From Gammaproteobacteria bacterium (GTDB taxonomy: Bacteria; Pseudomonadota; Gammaproteobacteria; Thiomicrospirales; Thiomicrospiraceae): a DNA stretch of 49,152 nucleotides. The position numbers were made by a program, and so were the translations under genes. Location of the stretch: positions 1-49,152 of the forward strand of contig JACXUY010000007.1 of assembly GCA_014763665.1 (NCBI GenBank). Reading direction: 5' to 3'. Within the stretch, counting starts at the first letter, position 1; each line of letters begins with the position of its first letter. Positions 1,114-6,991 of the stretch are shown piece after piece. The notes under the pieces were generated by a model. That model was not told the origin of the DNA. It was given only the letters and a program-made list of their open reading frames with translations, and ran no database searches.

Positions 1114-2883
1114 CTATGCCTTCCCTTCTTGATACTCGGCTAAACGGCTAACAAAAGCCAATCCATCTGACAACAGGCCTTCAATACCCTCTTGCAGCTG
1201 ACTAGCCGCCGCGTTTAACTGTTGAACAATTTTCATGTTTTCCGCATGGCGACGTTCTATATCGACCAACTCGGCTTCGCTCGGTAGTAAAATTGGAATG
1301 AGCTTGGCGTCTTCCATGCGCAACAGCGGCAAGTTAGTACCTGTATTCTTTTGCTGAATATACTGTTGTACGATGGGCAGTCTCAGATAATGATACAAAT
1401 AGATTGGACTGATACCGCTATTTGGACGACAACGCATCACCAGTACTTGCATGCCGGGAATACAGTTGTCATCGATTTCATCTGGCATGAGCATCACCTT
1501 ACCAATCGAACTTTTAGCCGTCAATAAAACATCTCTTGGCCTTAATCCATAACGTTTTTTCAATCGGGCCGCATCTGCCTCGCTAAAATGCTGAGACTTG
1601 TTCAATTTCATTAACTGACCGTACTGATCAAAGTCACCCGATGCCACATCGAATAACTCAATCGTGCCACTTTCACTCATTTCCTTTTTCGAGCTAAATG
1701 AACGAGTGGGTAAAAAATCCACTAACTGTGAAAGACGATGCCCTCTTCCACTTTGCATCACATGACGTTCCCAAGCTTCTAGCCCTTCGGGTTTAATATG
1801 ATCCGTTGCTAACAGCATCAAGTCGGTTTCGTCTTGGTTGAATAAAGCATCGACACCCATGGCTTTGAATCGATCGCCTTCATTAGACAGAATATCAACT
1901 AGGATACCTCGGGATGAATCACTATTCTCTAAGAACCGTTCATCACTGTAATTCGCCAAGAGTACACCAGAGCTATCTTTTGCTTGCTTATCGATATAAA
2001 TCAATTGAAGCTCGACATTACTGGTAGTTAATGCGCCTTTAGGTAATGCAACTAGCACACTGAGCGGTGTGATGCGTTTGCCCTGTTCGTAACGTATAAA
2101 GGCAGCTAAACGCTCGCTGGCCAGATTGTTTTTCTTACCGATAAAGAAGCTTTTAGGGTGATAAGAAACAATAACGGGATATTTAGTAAGCAGGGTTTGA
2201 TAAATACTGGGCGAATCTAAGGGTCCATTGTTACCAAAATAAGGACACAACACTAAAGCATCTTTACTAGGTAATTGTGTCAACTCATCATTCCCTACCG
2301 ACAGCGCCTTTGGATGAAAGTTAGGCCATAGCTTATTGAGCCAATTGTAAAGCCATGTCAGGGTTAAATCTCGGTAAGCATAAGTCACTTCTACCTTGCG
2401 TTGACACAGCTTAATAGCGGCGAAAATACCGGCATCGGCATAAACAACGCAGCTATGTACATAAGGCAACACTCCATCATCCTTTTCCGAAACATTGAGA
2501 TCTTGGCGAAACATCAAAAAATCATTCATCAAACCGCTTAACCCTAATGAAGTCACTGGGTAATGACGGGATTTGAAGTAATGAAAAAGATTGGCCACCA
2601 ATGCTGGCTCCGAATCTTGCGTTTTGGACGTGAAAATCAAGCGCTCTAACGCTGTAATGTCTGAATGCTCTATACTGGGCAATGAAACCGAATAGTCAGT
2701 CTGTTCATTAAAAACATCAGCCACTGACTGCAAATATTTCAGAGCATCAGCACCCAAAGCAACCTGATGTTGAGATTTAGTCAACATGGCAATATTCCAA
2801 AGCAAAAACAGCTCAGTCGGCTTGATTTTACCTGCTTCTTCAAACACCTTTGCAAAAGTGAGTTTGTTTTCTAGATTCGACAT
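1114..2883 (-). CDS. Degenerate N6-methylase-like protein with a C-terminal HsdS-like specificity half
   Basis: 589 residues. Residues about 380-589 resemble one half of a type I restriction specificity subunit. They contain a target-recognition-like segment, LRPRDVLLTAKSSIGKV (447-463), YLYHYLRLP, and GTNLPLLRMEDAKLIPILLP (515-534) followed by the long helix typical of HsdS. Residues about 140-330 resemble an HsdM fold: VVYADAGIF near 147 in place of motif I, and VALPKGALTTSN (278-289) like the IALPKGxL strand of HsdM. The catalytic NPPF/NPPY motif is absent; the equivalent place reads LCPYFGNNG (212-220). The protein is therefore probably a DNA-recognition or catalytically dead methylase module. 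CAGGAG precedes the ATG. The next gene downstream is unknown and probably belongs to the same system. Confidence 0.55.
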   Translation of the reverse strand: MSNLENKLTFAKVFEEAGKIKPTELFLLWNIAMLTKSQHQVALGADALKYLQSVADVFNEQTDYSVSLPSIEHSDITALERLIFTSKTQDSEPALVANLFHYFKSRHYPVTSLGLSGLMNDFLMFRQDLNVSEKDDGVLPYVHSCVVYADAGIFAAIKLCQRKVEVTYAYRDLTLTWLYNWLNKLWPNFHPKALSVGNDELTQLPSKDALVLCPYFGNNGPLDSPSIYQTLLTKYPVIVSYHPKSFFIGKKNNLASERLAAFIRYEQGKRITPLSVLVALPKGALTTSNVELQLIYIDKQAKDSSGVLLANYSDERFLENSDSSRGILVDILSNEGDRFKAMGVDALFNQDETDLMLLATDHIKPEGLEAWERHVMQSGRGHRLSQLVDFLPTRSFSSKKEMSESGTIELFDVASGDFDQYGQLMKLNKSQHFSEADAARLKKRYGLRPRDVLLTAKSSIGKVMLMPDEIDDNCIPGMQVLVMRCRPNSGISPIYLYHYLRLPIVQQYIQQKNTGTNLPLLRMEDAKLIPILLPSEAELVDIERRHAENMKIVQQLNAAASQLQEGIEGLLSDGLAFVSRLAEYQEGKA

Positions 2884-3092: not shown

Positions 3093-3500
3093 CTACTTAA
3101 CCATTATCCAGTTCTCAACACGCAGGCCATCAACTCGCTCAAACTCTCGCTCATTATTCGTGACCACAATCAATCCTTCTGAGCGCGCATGAGCAGCAAT
3201 ATGAATATCATTAACACCAATCGGAGTTCCTTTCTTATCTAATGCGGCGCGAATATCACCATAATGTGAAGCTGCAGCATCAGAATATGGCAGTACCTCT
3301 AAGCGGCTACAAAAGTCTTCAACTGCTTTAATGTTTTTAGCAATGTGTTGGCTTTTTTCAGCACCATGCAATAACTCCGCCAAGGTAATTGATGAAATCG
3401 CCATGCGATTTGCTGATTCGTTGAATTTACCAAGTACTTCTACCGGCCTGCGCTTAATAACGTGAATGCACATATTAGTATCGAGCAAAAATTTAAGCAT
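3093..3500 (-). CDS. vapC: VapC toxin, PIN-domain ribonuclease (pair 1)
   Basis: 135 residues, full length for VapC. PIN-domain acidic residues are visible: LLDTN at the N-terminus, AELLHGAE near residue 43, NDIHIAAHA near 98, and the C-terminal VVTNNEREF signature. VapC toxins are Mg-dependent RNases, usually cutting tRNA, held inactive by VapB. The ATG at 3500 lies inside the end of vapB (8-nt overlap), the usual translational coupling. An in-frame TTG one codon earlier is less likely. It is clearly paralogous to the VapC at 6107-6505. Confidence 0.9.
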   Translation of the reverse strand: MLKFLLDTNMCIHVIKRRPVEVLGKFNESANRMAISSITLAELLHGAEKSQHIAKNIKAVEDFCSRLEVLPYSDAAASHYGDIRAALDKKGTPIGVNDIHIAAHARSEGLIVVTNNEREFERVDGLRVENWIMVK

Positions 3501-3735
3501 CAAATGACTCTCTTACTGCTTCTAACTGTGTTGCTCGCTCTAGCATAAAATCTTCTGACACCTCGTTTTCTACAGATAGAAAGAAGCTATCCCATACATG
3601 ATCAATGGGAGATATAACACGATCATGCCCTAGGCTACGTATCAGCACTTTTTTTGTCGTACTGGGATAGCGAACGGATAAAGGCAATCTAACCGCCTGT
3701 GTTTTATTATTTTCGAAAACAGTCGAAGTAACCAT
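3493..3735 (-). CDS. vapB: VapB antitoxin, AbrB/SpoVT-like DNA-binding (pair 1)
   Basis: 80 residues. The N-terminal TSTVFENNKTQAVRLP is the swapped-hairpin AbrB-like DNA-binding motif of VapB antitoxins. The acidic C-terminal part (SEDFMLERATQ) would wrap the toxin. AGAGG stands 8 nt before the ATG. It overlaps vapC and is probably autoregulated through the palindrome at 3767-3787. It is a homologue of the antitoxin at 5877-6110. Confidence 0.88.
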   Translation of the reverse strand: MVTSTVFENNKTQAVRLPLSVRYPSTTKKVLIRSLGHDRVISPIDHVWDSFFLSVENEVSEDFMLERATQLEAVRESFDA

Positions 3736-3796: not shown

Positions 3797-5062
3797 CTAA
3801 CGCACCACTGGCAACTCATCCCATCGTGTCGTGTAACGTGGTGATACCTTATCCCGTTTCATTGCCCAAGGTTTACTGATCCCTTCACATCCAAAGAACA
3901 CTTGTCCTTTATGTTGTTTGTTGAGCTGATCGACCAAACTCATTAAGCCTTTACGCTTGGACTCATCTTTTGGCTGTTCATCGAACAAACTCAACTGAAA
4001 GGTTCCTGGTGCGTAAAAGTTTGATAGCATCACCCCGGCTTTAGCATAACGAAACTGAGGTTTATAAATACGCTGAATCAGCTCATTGGCTTGGTGTAGA
4101 AAGACAGCTGTGTCGTCACTAGGATAGCTGAGTTGGCTACTGGCTTGATTACTGTAGTAAGGTTCTTTATCGGCAAAAGGACTGGTACGACAAAACACCG
4201 TAATGGATTGTGCGCTCATCGCTTCGCTTCTGAGTTTTTCACAGGCTCTGGCGGTATAAGTGGCAACCGCTTGCGCTAGGTGGTCTAATTGTGTAATGCG
4301 ATCACCAAATGAGCGAGAGCAGACAATTTGTTGTTTGGTGGCAGGTGTTTCATCTAGCCCAAAACAAGCTTGTCCTTTTAACTCTCGTTGCGTGCGTTCT
4401 AGCACCACTGAAAACTGTTTACGCAGGCTTCCCGTATCATGCTGGATAAAATCCCACACGGTTTGAATACCCATATCGGTTAATTGACGCGATAAGCGAC
4501 GACCCACACCCCATACTTCACCTACTTCGGTAATACGCATGAGCTTTTCAATGCGAGCTTTGTCGGTTAATACAACCACACCGCCGGTTTTCGGATACTG
4601 CTTGGCCGCATGATTGGCTAACTTAGCCAAAGTCTTGGTGGCACCAATCCCAACGCCAACGCTGATACCTGTGTGTTTAAATACCGTCGATTGAATAAGC
4701 TTACCCATCTGCGATAACGCATGATCATCACTAAAACCACGTAAATCGGCAAAAGCCTCATCTATGGAGTAAATCTCAATCGCTGGCACAACCGATTCAA
4801 TGGTTTCCATGACCCGACGGCTAATGTCGGCATACAATTCATAGTTACTGGAAAAGACCATCACGCCATTACGATCAATACGCTCTTTAGCCTGAAAGTA
4901 AGGCTCACCCATCTTAAAGCCTAATGCTTTGGCTTCTTTACTGCGTGCGACTATGCAACCATCATTATTACTCAGCACAACAACGGGAGTATGAGCTAGA
5001 TCAGGACGAAACAACTTCTCACAAGAAGCGTAGAAGTTATTGCAATCGATGAGTGCAAACAC
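3797..5062 (-). CDS. umuC: DNA polymerase V catalytic subunit UmuC
   Basis: 421 residues, the normal UmuC length. It is a Y-family translesion polymerase. It begins VFALIDCNNFYASCEKLF after a GTG start that overlaps the umuD stop (TAGTG). The catalytic acidic motif YSIDEAF is at about residues 98-104, with a helix-hairpin-helix region (ITEVGEVWGVGRRLSRQL) and a little-finger domain with QLSLFDEQ, resembling the beta-clamp-binding motif. UmuC pairs with two cleaved UmuD' for SOS mutagenesis. It is co-transcribed with umuD and lies between two VapBC pairs. Confidence 0.96.
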   Translation of the reverse strand: MFALIDCNNFYASCEKLFRPDLAHTPVVVLSNNDGCIVARSKEAKALGFKMGEPYFQAKERIDRNGVMVFSSNYELYADISRRVMETIESVVPAIEIYSIDEAFADLRGFSDDHALSQMGKLIQSTVFKHTGISVGVGIGATKTLAKLANHAAKQYPKTGGVVVLTDKARIEKLMRITEVGEVWGVGRRLSRQLTDMGIQTVWDFIQHDTGSLRKQFSVVLERTQRELKGQACFGLDETPATKQQIVCSRSFGDRITQLDHLAQAVATYTARACEKLRSEAMSAQSITVFCRTSPFADKEPYYSNQASSQLSYPSDDTAVFLHQANELIQRIYKPQFRYAKAGVMLSNFYAPGTFQLSLFDEQPKDESKRKGLMSLVDQLNKQHKGQVFFGCEGISKPWAMKRDKVSPRYTTRWDELPVVR

Positions 5063-5493
5063 TAGCTTGTCCGCTTAAACGAATGCAAGGTATGCACCAC
5101 CACACCCTGAATCAATAGCTCACTTTCATTAGGAACCTGAATAACTGGATAATCTGGATTCATCGGTGCTAATCTCACCCCTTTATCATCTACCTCTAAA
5201 CGCTTCACCGTCAGTTCACCATAGTAGCCAGCGATGACAATATCACCAGACTTAGGCTCAATCGAACGATCGACAATGAGCATATCGCCATCTTGTATGC
5301 CAGCGCCAATCATTGAATCTCCCGAAACCCGCACAAAGTAAGTGGCTGCAGGATGACGAATACACAGCTCATTCAAATCCAAACTCTGCTCAATGTAATC
5401 TGCTGCTGGTGACGGAAAGCCTGCAGGCACTAACGCCTCAACATAAGCACAAGGCATATAACTCATGGGTGAAGCAACGGAAAAATGAAGCAT
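5062..5493 (-). CDS. umuD: UmuD, self-cleaving accessory subunit of DNA polymerase V
   Basis: 143 residues from the ATG at 5493, which has a TGGAG ribosome site upstream. With this start the key residues fall exactly at the E. coli numbers: cleavage site Ala24-Gly25 (VPAGFP), nucleophile Ser60 (SGDSM) and Lys97 (ELTVKRL). This settles the start against a longer in-frame reading from 5586. It is a peptidase S24 fold without a DNA-binding domain. RecA-stimulated self-cleavage yields UmuD' for polymerase V. It overlaps umuC. Confidence 0.95.
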   Translation of the reverse strand: MLHFSVASPMSYMPCAYVEALVPAGFPSPAADYIEQSLDLNELCIRHPAATYFVRVSGDSMIGAGIQDGDMLIVDRSIEPKSGDIVIAGYYGELTVKRLEVDDKGVRLAPMNPDYPVIQVPNESELLIQGVVVHTLHSFKRTS

Positions 5494-5521: not shown

Positions 5522-5550
5522 ATTATAGAACGATTGTTCTTGTTAGACAA
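5522..5550 (-). promoter_or_regulatory. umuDC promoter with GAAC-N4-GTTC palindrome
   Basis: The minus strand reads -35 TTGTCT (5550-5545), an exact 17-bp spacer and -10 TATAAT (5527-5522). The perfect palindrome AGAAC-AATC-GTTCT (5540-5527; core 5528-5539) fills the 3' half of the spacer and touches the -10. It resembles the LexA/DinR box of Gram-positive bacteria rather than the CTGT-N8-ACAG box usual in enterobacteria. That it is a LexA site is inferred. Confidence 0.65.
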
Positions 5551-5857: not shown

Positions 5858-5876
5858 CTATTAAAGGAGCGTGATG

Positions 5877-6110
5877 ATGTTAGTGCAAGCTACTGTTTTC
5901 AAAAATAACCAATCACAGGCCATTCGCCTACCCAAGCTGGTGGCTTTAGATGAACACATTAAACAAGTCACCGTCATTGCTTTAGGTAAAACCCGTATCA
6001 TTACCCCTACTGATCACACATGGGATGATTGGTTTGATCAGAACAATACCACCAATGACTTCATGAATGAACGGTCACAAGAAGCCGATCAGGTTCGTGA
6101 ATCATTATGA
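5877..6110 (+). CDS. vapB: VapB antitoxin, AbrB-like (pair 2)
   Basis: 77 residues from the ATG at 5877, placed 7 nt after AAGGAG. GTG (5871) and ATG (5874) also lie in frame but are too near that site. The N-terminal QATVFKNNQSQAIRLP is the AbrB-like DNA-binding motif, and the acidic C-terminus should bind toxin. It overlaps vapC by ATGA. It matches the antitoxin at 3493-3735 along its length, so the two pairs are paralogous. Confidence 0.87.
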   Translation: MLVQATVFKNNQSQAIRLPKLVALDEHIKQVTVIALGKTRIITPTDHTWDDWFDQNNTTNDFMNERSQEADQVRESL

Positions 6111-6505
6111 TTAAGTATCTGCTCGATACGAACATCCTGATTTACACCATTAAAAATCGACCATCATCGGTGCGCGATAAATTCAACCAACACGTCGGTC
6201 AAATGGCTATTTCGACCATTACGATTGGAGAATTGGTTTATGGTGCTGAGCGCTCGTCTCATCCGCAGAAAAACCTGCTGGACATTGAAGGATTAATTGC
6301 ACGTTTAGAGGTCTTAGATTTTGACCAAACGGCTGCCGAACATTTCGGAGATATTAGAGCACATCTTTACCGTCAAGGCACGCCGATTGATCCTTACGAC
6401 ATGATGCTCGCCGGTCATGCTCGTGCGCATGGTCTTATCATGGTAACGAATAACATGAAAGAGTTTGATCGTGTGGAAGGACTGCGCTGTGAGAATTGGG
6501 TATAA
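6107..6505 (+). CDS. vapC: VapC toxin, PIN-domain ribonuclease (pair 2)
   Basis: 132 residues. PIN acidic positions are present: LLDTN, GELVYGAE, and DPYDMMLAGHA, followed by VTNNMKEFDRVEGL. The start overlaps the vapB stop as ATGA. Roughly half its residues match the VapC at 3093-3500, in the opposite orientation across umuDC. The toxin is expected to be an RNase neutralised by the upstream VapB. Confidence 0.9.
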   Translation: MIKYLLDTNILIYTIKNRPSSVRDKFNQHVGQMAISTITIGELVYGAERSSHPQKNLLDIEGLIARLEVLDFDQTAAEHFGDIRAHLYRQGTPIDPYDMMLAGHARAHGLIMVTNNMKEFDRVEGLRCENWV

Positions 6506-6508
6506 ATT

Positions 6509-6991
6509 ATGCCATCTGCCGTCAGTCACGAAACCCTCGTTCGTCAGTTGCAAGTGCTGCAATTTATCCCAAGATCACCCGCACAAATTACGGTTGCCGA
6601 CCTAAGGTGCTCATTAAGTGAATTGGGTTTCAGTGCACTAGTCGTACAGTTCAGCGGACTTGAACGATATTGCAACCGTGATGCCAAAGCACACTTGCCA
6701 ATGATGAGCCTTCGCGAGGCGATCACCTTGCATTTAGTTAGCAAGCCATTTATCGCATGTTTTGCCACCAAATATGTTAGAGGACTTATCTCCTCTGTTT
6801 ATTCAGGCTGAACAAACGTTCACGCATCTTGGCACAAAAAATCAGGTTGCACACTGGTTAGCTTGTATTGCCGTGGTATCGCCAACTTAACCGATGCTCG
6901 AGGAGCCAAAATACTTGTAAAGGCACCAGAAAAACTAAAAACCGCCATAAAAAATGAAATTAAGCTGATGTACCAGCACTATCAAAATTAA
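6509..6991 (+). pseudogene. Remnant of a WYL-domain transcriptional regulator
   Basis: Three pieces of a WYL regulator appear in order but in different frames. The N-terminal helix-turn-helix start (SHETLVRQLQVLQFIPRSP) leads to LPMMSLREAITLHLV in frame from 6509. LPPNMLEDLSPLFIQAEQ follows in another frame (from about 6762) and stops at TAA. The C-terminal WCX-like tail APEKLKTAIKNEIKLMYQH then resumes the first frame and ends at TAA 6989-6991. Intact relatives are about 300-340 residues; this stretch holds only about 160 codons, so most of the WYL domain is deleted. It starts 3 nt after vapC. WYL regulators are common in phage-defence islands, which fits the neighbourhood. Confidence 0.7.

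Follow-up and report, generated by a model that had tools for sequence, protein, structure and literature searches.

A GAAC-N4-GTTC box in the umuDC promoter of a Thiomicrospira-related bacterium appears to be the operator of an unusual LexA

The window (the whole stretch of DNA analysed, 49,152 nucleotides) is contig C191 of a draft genome in 238 contigs, here called G000. It carries a umuDC operon whose umuD gene is likely to start at the ATG at 5493, with GGAG ahead of it; a longer GTG open reading frame, from 5586, would begin upstream of the promoter. The operon and its promoter comprise the following features.

3797 to 5062, minus strand: umuC, Y-family polymerase, the catalytic subunit of pol V (NF002955, 563.3 bits, cut-off 431)
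5062 to 5493, minus strand: umuD, autoproteolytic subunit of pol V, 143 codons from the ATG (NF007621, 159.5 bits, cut-off 110; Peptidase_S24)
5522 to 5527, minus strand: -10 element TATAAT (promoter scan)
5527 to 5540, minus strand: putative LexA operator AGAACAATCGTTCT, with a core identical to that of the middle lexA operator
5545 to 5550, minus strand: -35 element TTGTCT (promoter scan)

The umuDC promoter, TTGTCT-17-TATAAT (5550-5522, minus strand), agrees with the consensus at 10 of 12 positions in the promoter scan. The box forms the 3′ end of the spacer between the two elements and has one base in common with the -10. Its core, GAACGATTGTTC at 5528-5539, is an exact GAAC-N4-GTTC; one pair wider, it reads AGAACGATTGTTCT at 5527-5540, with perfect 5-bp arms around a GATT centre that is not palindromic. 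The first-pass annotation had described a perfect 14-bp palindrome between a -35 and a TATAAT spaced by 17 bp, and the box and its promoter were indeed found there, the symmetry being confined to the two arms. The umuDC promoter contains no CTGT-N8-ACAG, and the sole copy of that motif within the window lies about 29 kb from umuDC.

In passages of PMC3323433 and in Table 1 of PMC9578287, GAAC-N4-GTTC is given as the LexA motif of Gram-positive bacteria, and passages of the former give CTGT-N8-ACAG as that of most beta- and gammaproteobacteria. The putative operator of the present genus is unusual for a gammaproteobacterium. From the umuDC promoter it had been suggested that the genome has an unusual LexA or another SOS repressor, and that the same palindrome should be looked for at lexA and recA. 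G000 encodes one protein with a LexA DNA-binding domain and one RecA. Directly upstream of its lexA gene are three exact GAAC-N4-GTTC boxes, with starts spaced by 23 and 29 bp. In coding-strand orientation, TTGACA has one box upstream of it and one between it and CATAAT, and the remaining box is just past the -10. The 12-bp core of the middle box is identical to that at umuDC, and the lexA locus (L054) is devoid of CTGT-N8-ACAG.

The genus has three other genomes, all MAGs: Thiotrichales bacterium 35-46-9 (G001), Thiomicrospira cyclica SulCav_PC08_3_44_41 (G002) and Thiotrichales bacterium 2016_B01_C_3 (G003), with LexA proteins respectively 97%, 67% and 82% identical to that of G000. Three exact boxes are found at lexA in G001 and G003, and one in G002. 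The expectation was therefore strongly borne out at lexA. It failed at recA, normally a core SOS gene, for which no exact box was present in the stretch examined in G000, G001 and G003. A one-mismatch site before cinA, the gene upstream of recA, is present in G000 and G001; it is absent from G003 and we do not claim it as a recA operator. The opposite pattern, a classical box and no GAAC-N4-GTTC at lexA and recA, did not occur.

Two further promoters carry the box. The nadK-recN box, GAACATTCGTTC, is present in all four genomes of the genus, and the parE box in three of them (G000, G001 and G003); none turned up at parE in G002, a genome that is 81% complete. The parE promoter, TTGTAT-17-TATTAT, has its box abutting the -10, the same layout as at umuDC. 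This box falls inside the longest open reading frame only through an early start codon, as the topoisomerase frame (from 1555 of locus L013) starts after it. All three genes were identified by NCBIfam, although the partial frames of recN and parE score below the full-length cut-offs (169 versus 418 bits and 554.3 versus 723.35 bits). The parE layout is seen at 1432-1555 of L013 and also at L138 and L145, and this topoisomerase IV subunit may be under SOS control; in a passage of PMC3323433, SOS control of parE is reported for Sinorhizobium meliloti.

Three S24 proteins are encoded in G000, namely UmuD, LexA and a CI-like repressor. The DNA-binding domain of LexA (PF01726) scores 26.5 bits against a cut-off of 23.7 in G000; in G002 and G003 its score does not reach that cut-off. 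Its Peptidase_S24 domain is recognised with an E value of 1.4e-23. The NCBIfam lexA model, TIGR00498, gives 99.4 bits against 110.95, which is a threshold for naming and not a biochemical feature. Residues A78-G79, S114 and K151 are invariant among 11 aligned LexAs; from established knowledge of LexA, we take the first two to be the cleavage site and the others to be the Ser/Lys pair. An AlphaFold model built with 11 sequences (pLDDT 77.2, pTM 0.50; a first model, with pLDDT 44.5, was left out) has helices at 2-18, 24-31 and 36-48 and strands at 52-54 and 60-62, which make a winged helix-turn-helix. In structural comparison, nearly the whole model could be aligned to Thermotoga LexA (3k2z: Z 16.1, rmsd 3.6, 178 residues) and to DNA-bound E. 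coli LexA (3jso: Z 13.7, rmsd 6.9, 173 residues). The recognition helix presumably lies within SKSAVHALIKRLVQAG, and a comparable S-x-V-H stretch probably occurs at this place in the LexA of Bacillus.

The search for relatives covered family and class genomes and plasmids, and genome contigs were scanned once for close ones. PF01726 was found in 4 of 58 genomes of the family, which are the four of the genus (two of them over the cut-off), and in 0 of the 54 others. When the first 81 residues of LexA were compared with 369 genomes of the class, 18 matched, 6 of them strongly (E <1e-10, G000 included). An exact box stands just upstream of lexA in four of the five other strong-match genomes, and the fifth has GAACGTTCGTAC, with one mismatch, at that place; at the loci of the weak matches, exact boxes were found in 0 of 12. 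In an unrooted tree of 23 proteins, the genus, the strong matches and a Comamonas plasmid protein are split from 14 standard LexAs with 100/100 support. The tree covers four of the five strong matches, L058 being left out as an incomplete protein; L063, a candidate standard LexA, was left out as no open reading frame was picked there. The Comamonas plasmid S24 protein (H1) sits on a long branch, and its locus lacks an exact box. The box thus occurs together with this LexA branch. The label "Bacillus-type" holds for the operator only; the nearest relatives found for the repressor belong to its own class. As to the hosts, 16S was found in one of nine genomes searched; the partial 16S of G370 is 85.5% identical to Methylomagnum and 84.9% to Cupriavidus. 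Boxes away from lexA in the other class genomes, part of which were examined, are mostly in open reading frames; two, at L148 and L154, are intergenic with no clear sense, and no regulon is claimed there.

Could the palindrome have arisen by chance within an ordinary sigma-70 promoter and be without a regulatory role? The genome-wide counts can be read that way: exact boxes number 20 in 2.17 Mb, fewer than the 48 of the reversed control pattern, and 13 of the 20 lie inside open reading frames and look like chance. The remaining seven are the three at lexA, those of umuDC, nadK-recN and parE, and one at 6810-6821 of the window. The last overlaps the end of a short open reading frame (6509-6811), has no recognisable promoter and was put down to chance; the region 6509-6990 (plus strand) in which it lies consists of that short frame followed by an apparent frame-broken remnant. 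In the window as a whole, two exact boxes were observed for 0.54 expected. With few real sites, however, no genome-wide over-representation of the box is expected. At the density of 20 in 2.17 Mb, approximately 0.001 exact boxes are expected per 100-bp promoter, and when the 200 bp surrounding the umuDC box were dinucleotide-shuffled 20000 times, 45 of the shuffles contained one. Moreover, the identity of its 12-bp core with that of a lexA operator makes the umuDC box more than chance, and it takes the same position in its promoter as the parE box. We consider a chance origin highly improbable. Allowing up to one mismatch gave 52 sites, exact ones included, on the forward strand of the genome. 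Among 34 one-mismatch regions examined, 33 are in open reading frames and none was added to the regulon; the site at L124 is intergenic, near a contig end, and that at L103 is at a probable gene start. This classification leaves out, for example, C156:2611, C192:8044, and 8530 and 47516 of the window.

The box could alternatively be bound by another S24 repressor, for which the genome offers a candidate in the CI-like protein, 215 aa long, encoded on contig C147 and carrying an HTH_3/phage CI domain. Its locus, however, is without GAAC-N4-GTTC whereas lexA has three, the protein has a Cro/CI-type helix-turn-helix, and across genomes it is LexA that the box tracks. Such a repressor is extremely improbable as the owner of the site. 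The suggestion of an unusual LexA is thus supported, by the three exact boxes at lexA and by the separate branch of the tree. On sequence grounds, the umuDC palindrome is very probably the operator of the genome's own noncanonical LexA, which would recognise GAAC-N4-GTTC. Because it carries this version of LexA, the bacterium appears to control its error-prone repair polymerase through an SOS operator of the Bacillus kind.

From this arrangement we infer LexA binding, repression, RecA-dependent cleavage and induction. A LexA dimer on the box would occlude the spacer and the -10 and keep the umuDC promoter off. Upon DNA damage, RecA filaments would trigger self-cleavage of LexA at Ala78-Gly79, the box would be vacated, and UmuD and UmuC would be made. 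LexA would also control its own gene, via the three operators, as well as nadK-recN, and parE is probably under the same repressor.

A umuC match was found in G000 only among the four genomes of the genus, so that the umuDC box has no counterpart in the genus by which to judge conservation. Compared with plasmid proteins, UmuC is approximately 54% identical to the best among the matches listed. Three plasmid umuD promoters were examined, out of 15 records listed, and all three have CTGT-N8-ACAG and no GAAC-N4-GTTC; the box at umuDC therefore fits the local LexA and not the plasmid relatives. It may have evolved in this genus or have arrived with the operon. Scans of viral contigs revealed no relatives of UmuC or of the genus LexA. 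The operon is flanked on both sides by toxin-antitoxin-like pairs with PIN-domain proteins (3093-3735, minus strand, and 5871-6505, plus strand), which are VapBC-like, a name given by resemblance. Near the PIN pair, a 589-aa open reading frame (1114-2883, minus strand) has no Pfam match at E 0.01, and its C-terminal part gives the impression of a type I restriction specificity segment.

Where did the LexA come from? Lateral acquisition by the genus is likely, and it possibly rebuilt a small SOS regulon around the gene. A fuller scenario, which we put forward tentatively and with somewhat less than even confidence, is that a family that had lost LexA regained an SOS response in one genus via a noncanonical LexA from elsewhere, with a compact regulon (lexA, nadK-recN, parE) that leaves out recA, and that a horizontally acquired umuDC was then captured through its matching operator, the whole being at an early stage of re-assembly. 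Alternatively, LexA descended vertically in this genus and the other family members lost it, a history that is also compatible with the umuDC box being a LexA operator. One or a few losses would account for the absence of LexA in 54 family genomes, the tree is unrooted, and no close sister was found outside the class genomes sampled. Vertical descent nevertheless seems unlikely to us, as genomes with a relative of this LexA are dispersed through the class (the 18 of 369 above) and the other family members examined have a different S24 protein, which adjoins umuC in several loci.

Passages of PMC8565304 report that LexA motifs change and that S24 repressors can replace LexA. No paper that combines LexA and the SOS response with Thiomicrospira came up in our literature search, and among the matches listed for the Hydrogenovibrio, Thiomicrorhabdus and Thiomicrospira literature none was on LexA. 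In E. coli, the LexA regulon includes umuDC, lexA and recN. The genus LexA resembles the classical protein in domain layout, cleavage site, catalytic residues and predicted control of these three, but its operator is not CTGT-N8-ACAG, it falls on a separate branch, and recA has no exact box. With Bacillus subtilis LexA/DinR it shares, at the operator level, GAAC-N4-GTTC; the host phylum is different, and the closest relatives that the search revealed come from the proteobacterial class of the genus itself. A 2015 paper in J Bacteriol (197:2622) reportedly describes a noncanonical LexA motif in Betaproteobacteria (Sideroxydans lithotrophicus), where the LexA is said to be unrelated to the standard one, to have a Bacillus-like motif, GAACGaaCGTTC, and to show signs of lateral spread. 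What the two cases would have in common is a nonstandard LexA branch with a Bacillus-like box in a proteobacterial host. The difference lies in the host, here a Thiomicrospira-like gammaproteobacterium of a family whose other sampled genomes showed no LexA domain. The present case fits among the known noncanonical proteobacterial LexAs, with a new host group.

LexA operators are among the clearest cases of the co-evolution of a regulator and its motif. In this genus a Bacillus-type box would serve a nonstandard LexA where the sampled relatives have no LexA; the regulon common to the four genomes is small, and umuDC, in one genome only, appears to be already wired in. This makes it a compact system for asking how SOS networks get rebuilt, and whether recA must belong to them.

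Other members of the family have a UmuD-like S24 protein of 197-240 aa whose gene adjoins umuC, divergently in several loci (L025-L042 and related loci; examples are L032:1492-2112 and L038:1168-1890). Passages of PMC8565304 describe a comparable situation in Moraxellaceae, a gammaproteobacterial family without LexA in which a longer UmuD-like protein, UmuDAb, adjoins umuC. The present genus differs in having a LexA-type repressor, and the other family members differ in their N-terminal extension, which has no Pfam domain in the one protein scanned. No operator common across loci emerged from the palindromes upstream of these genes. The family protein may be a UmuDAb-like stand-in repressor, and its N-terminus has the conserved stretch HGGxRxGAGRKxGSGxxxEPTKVxRVP.
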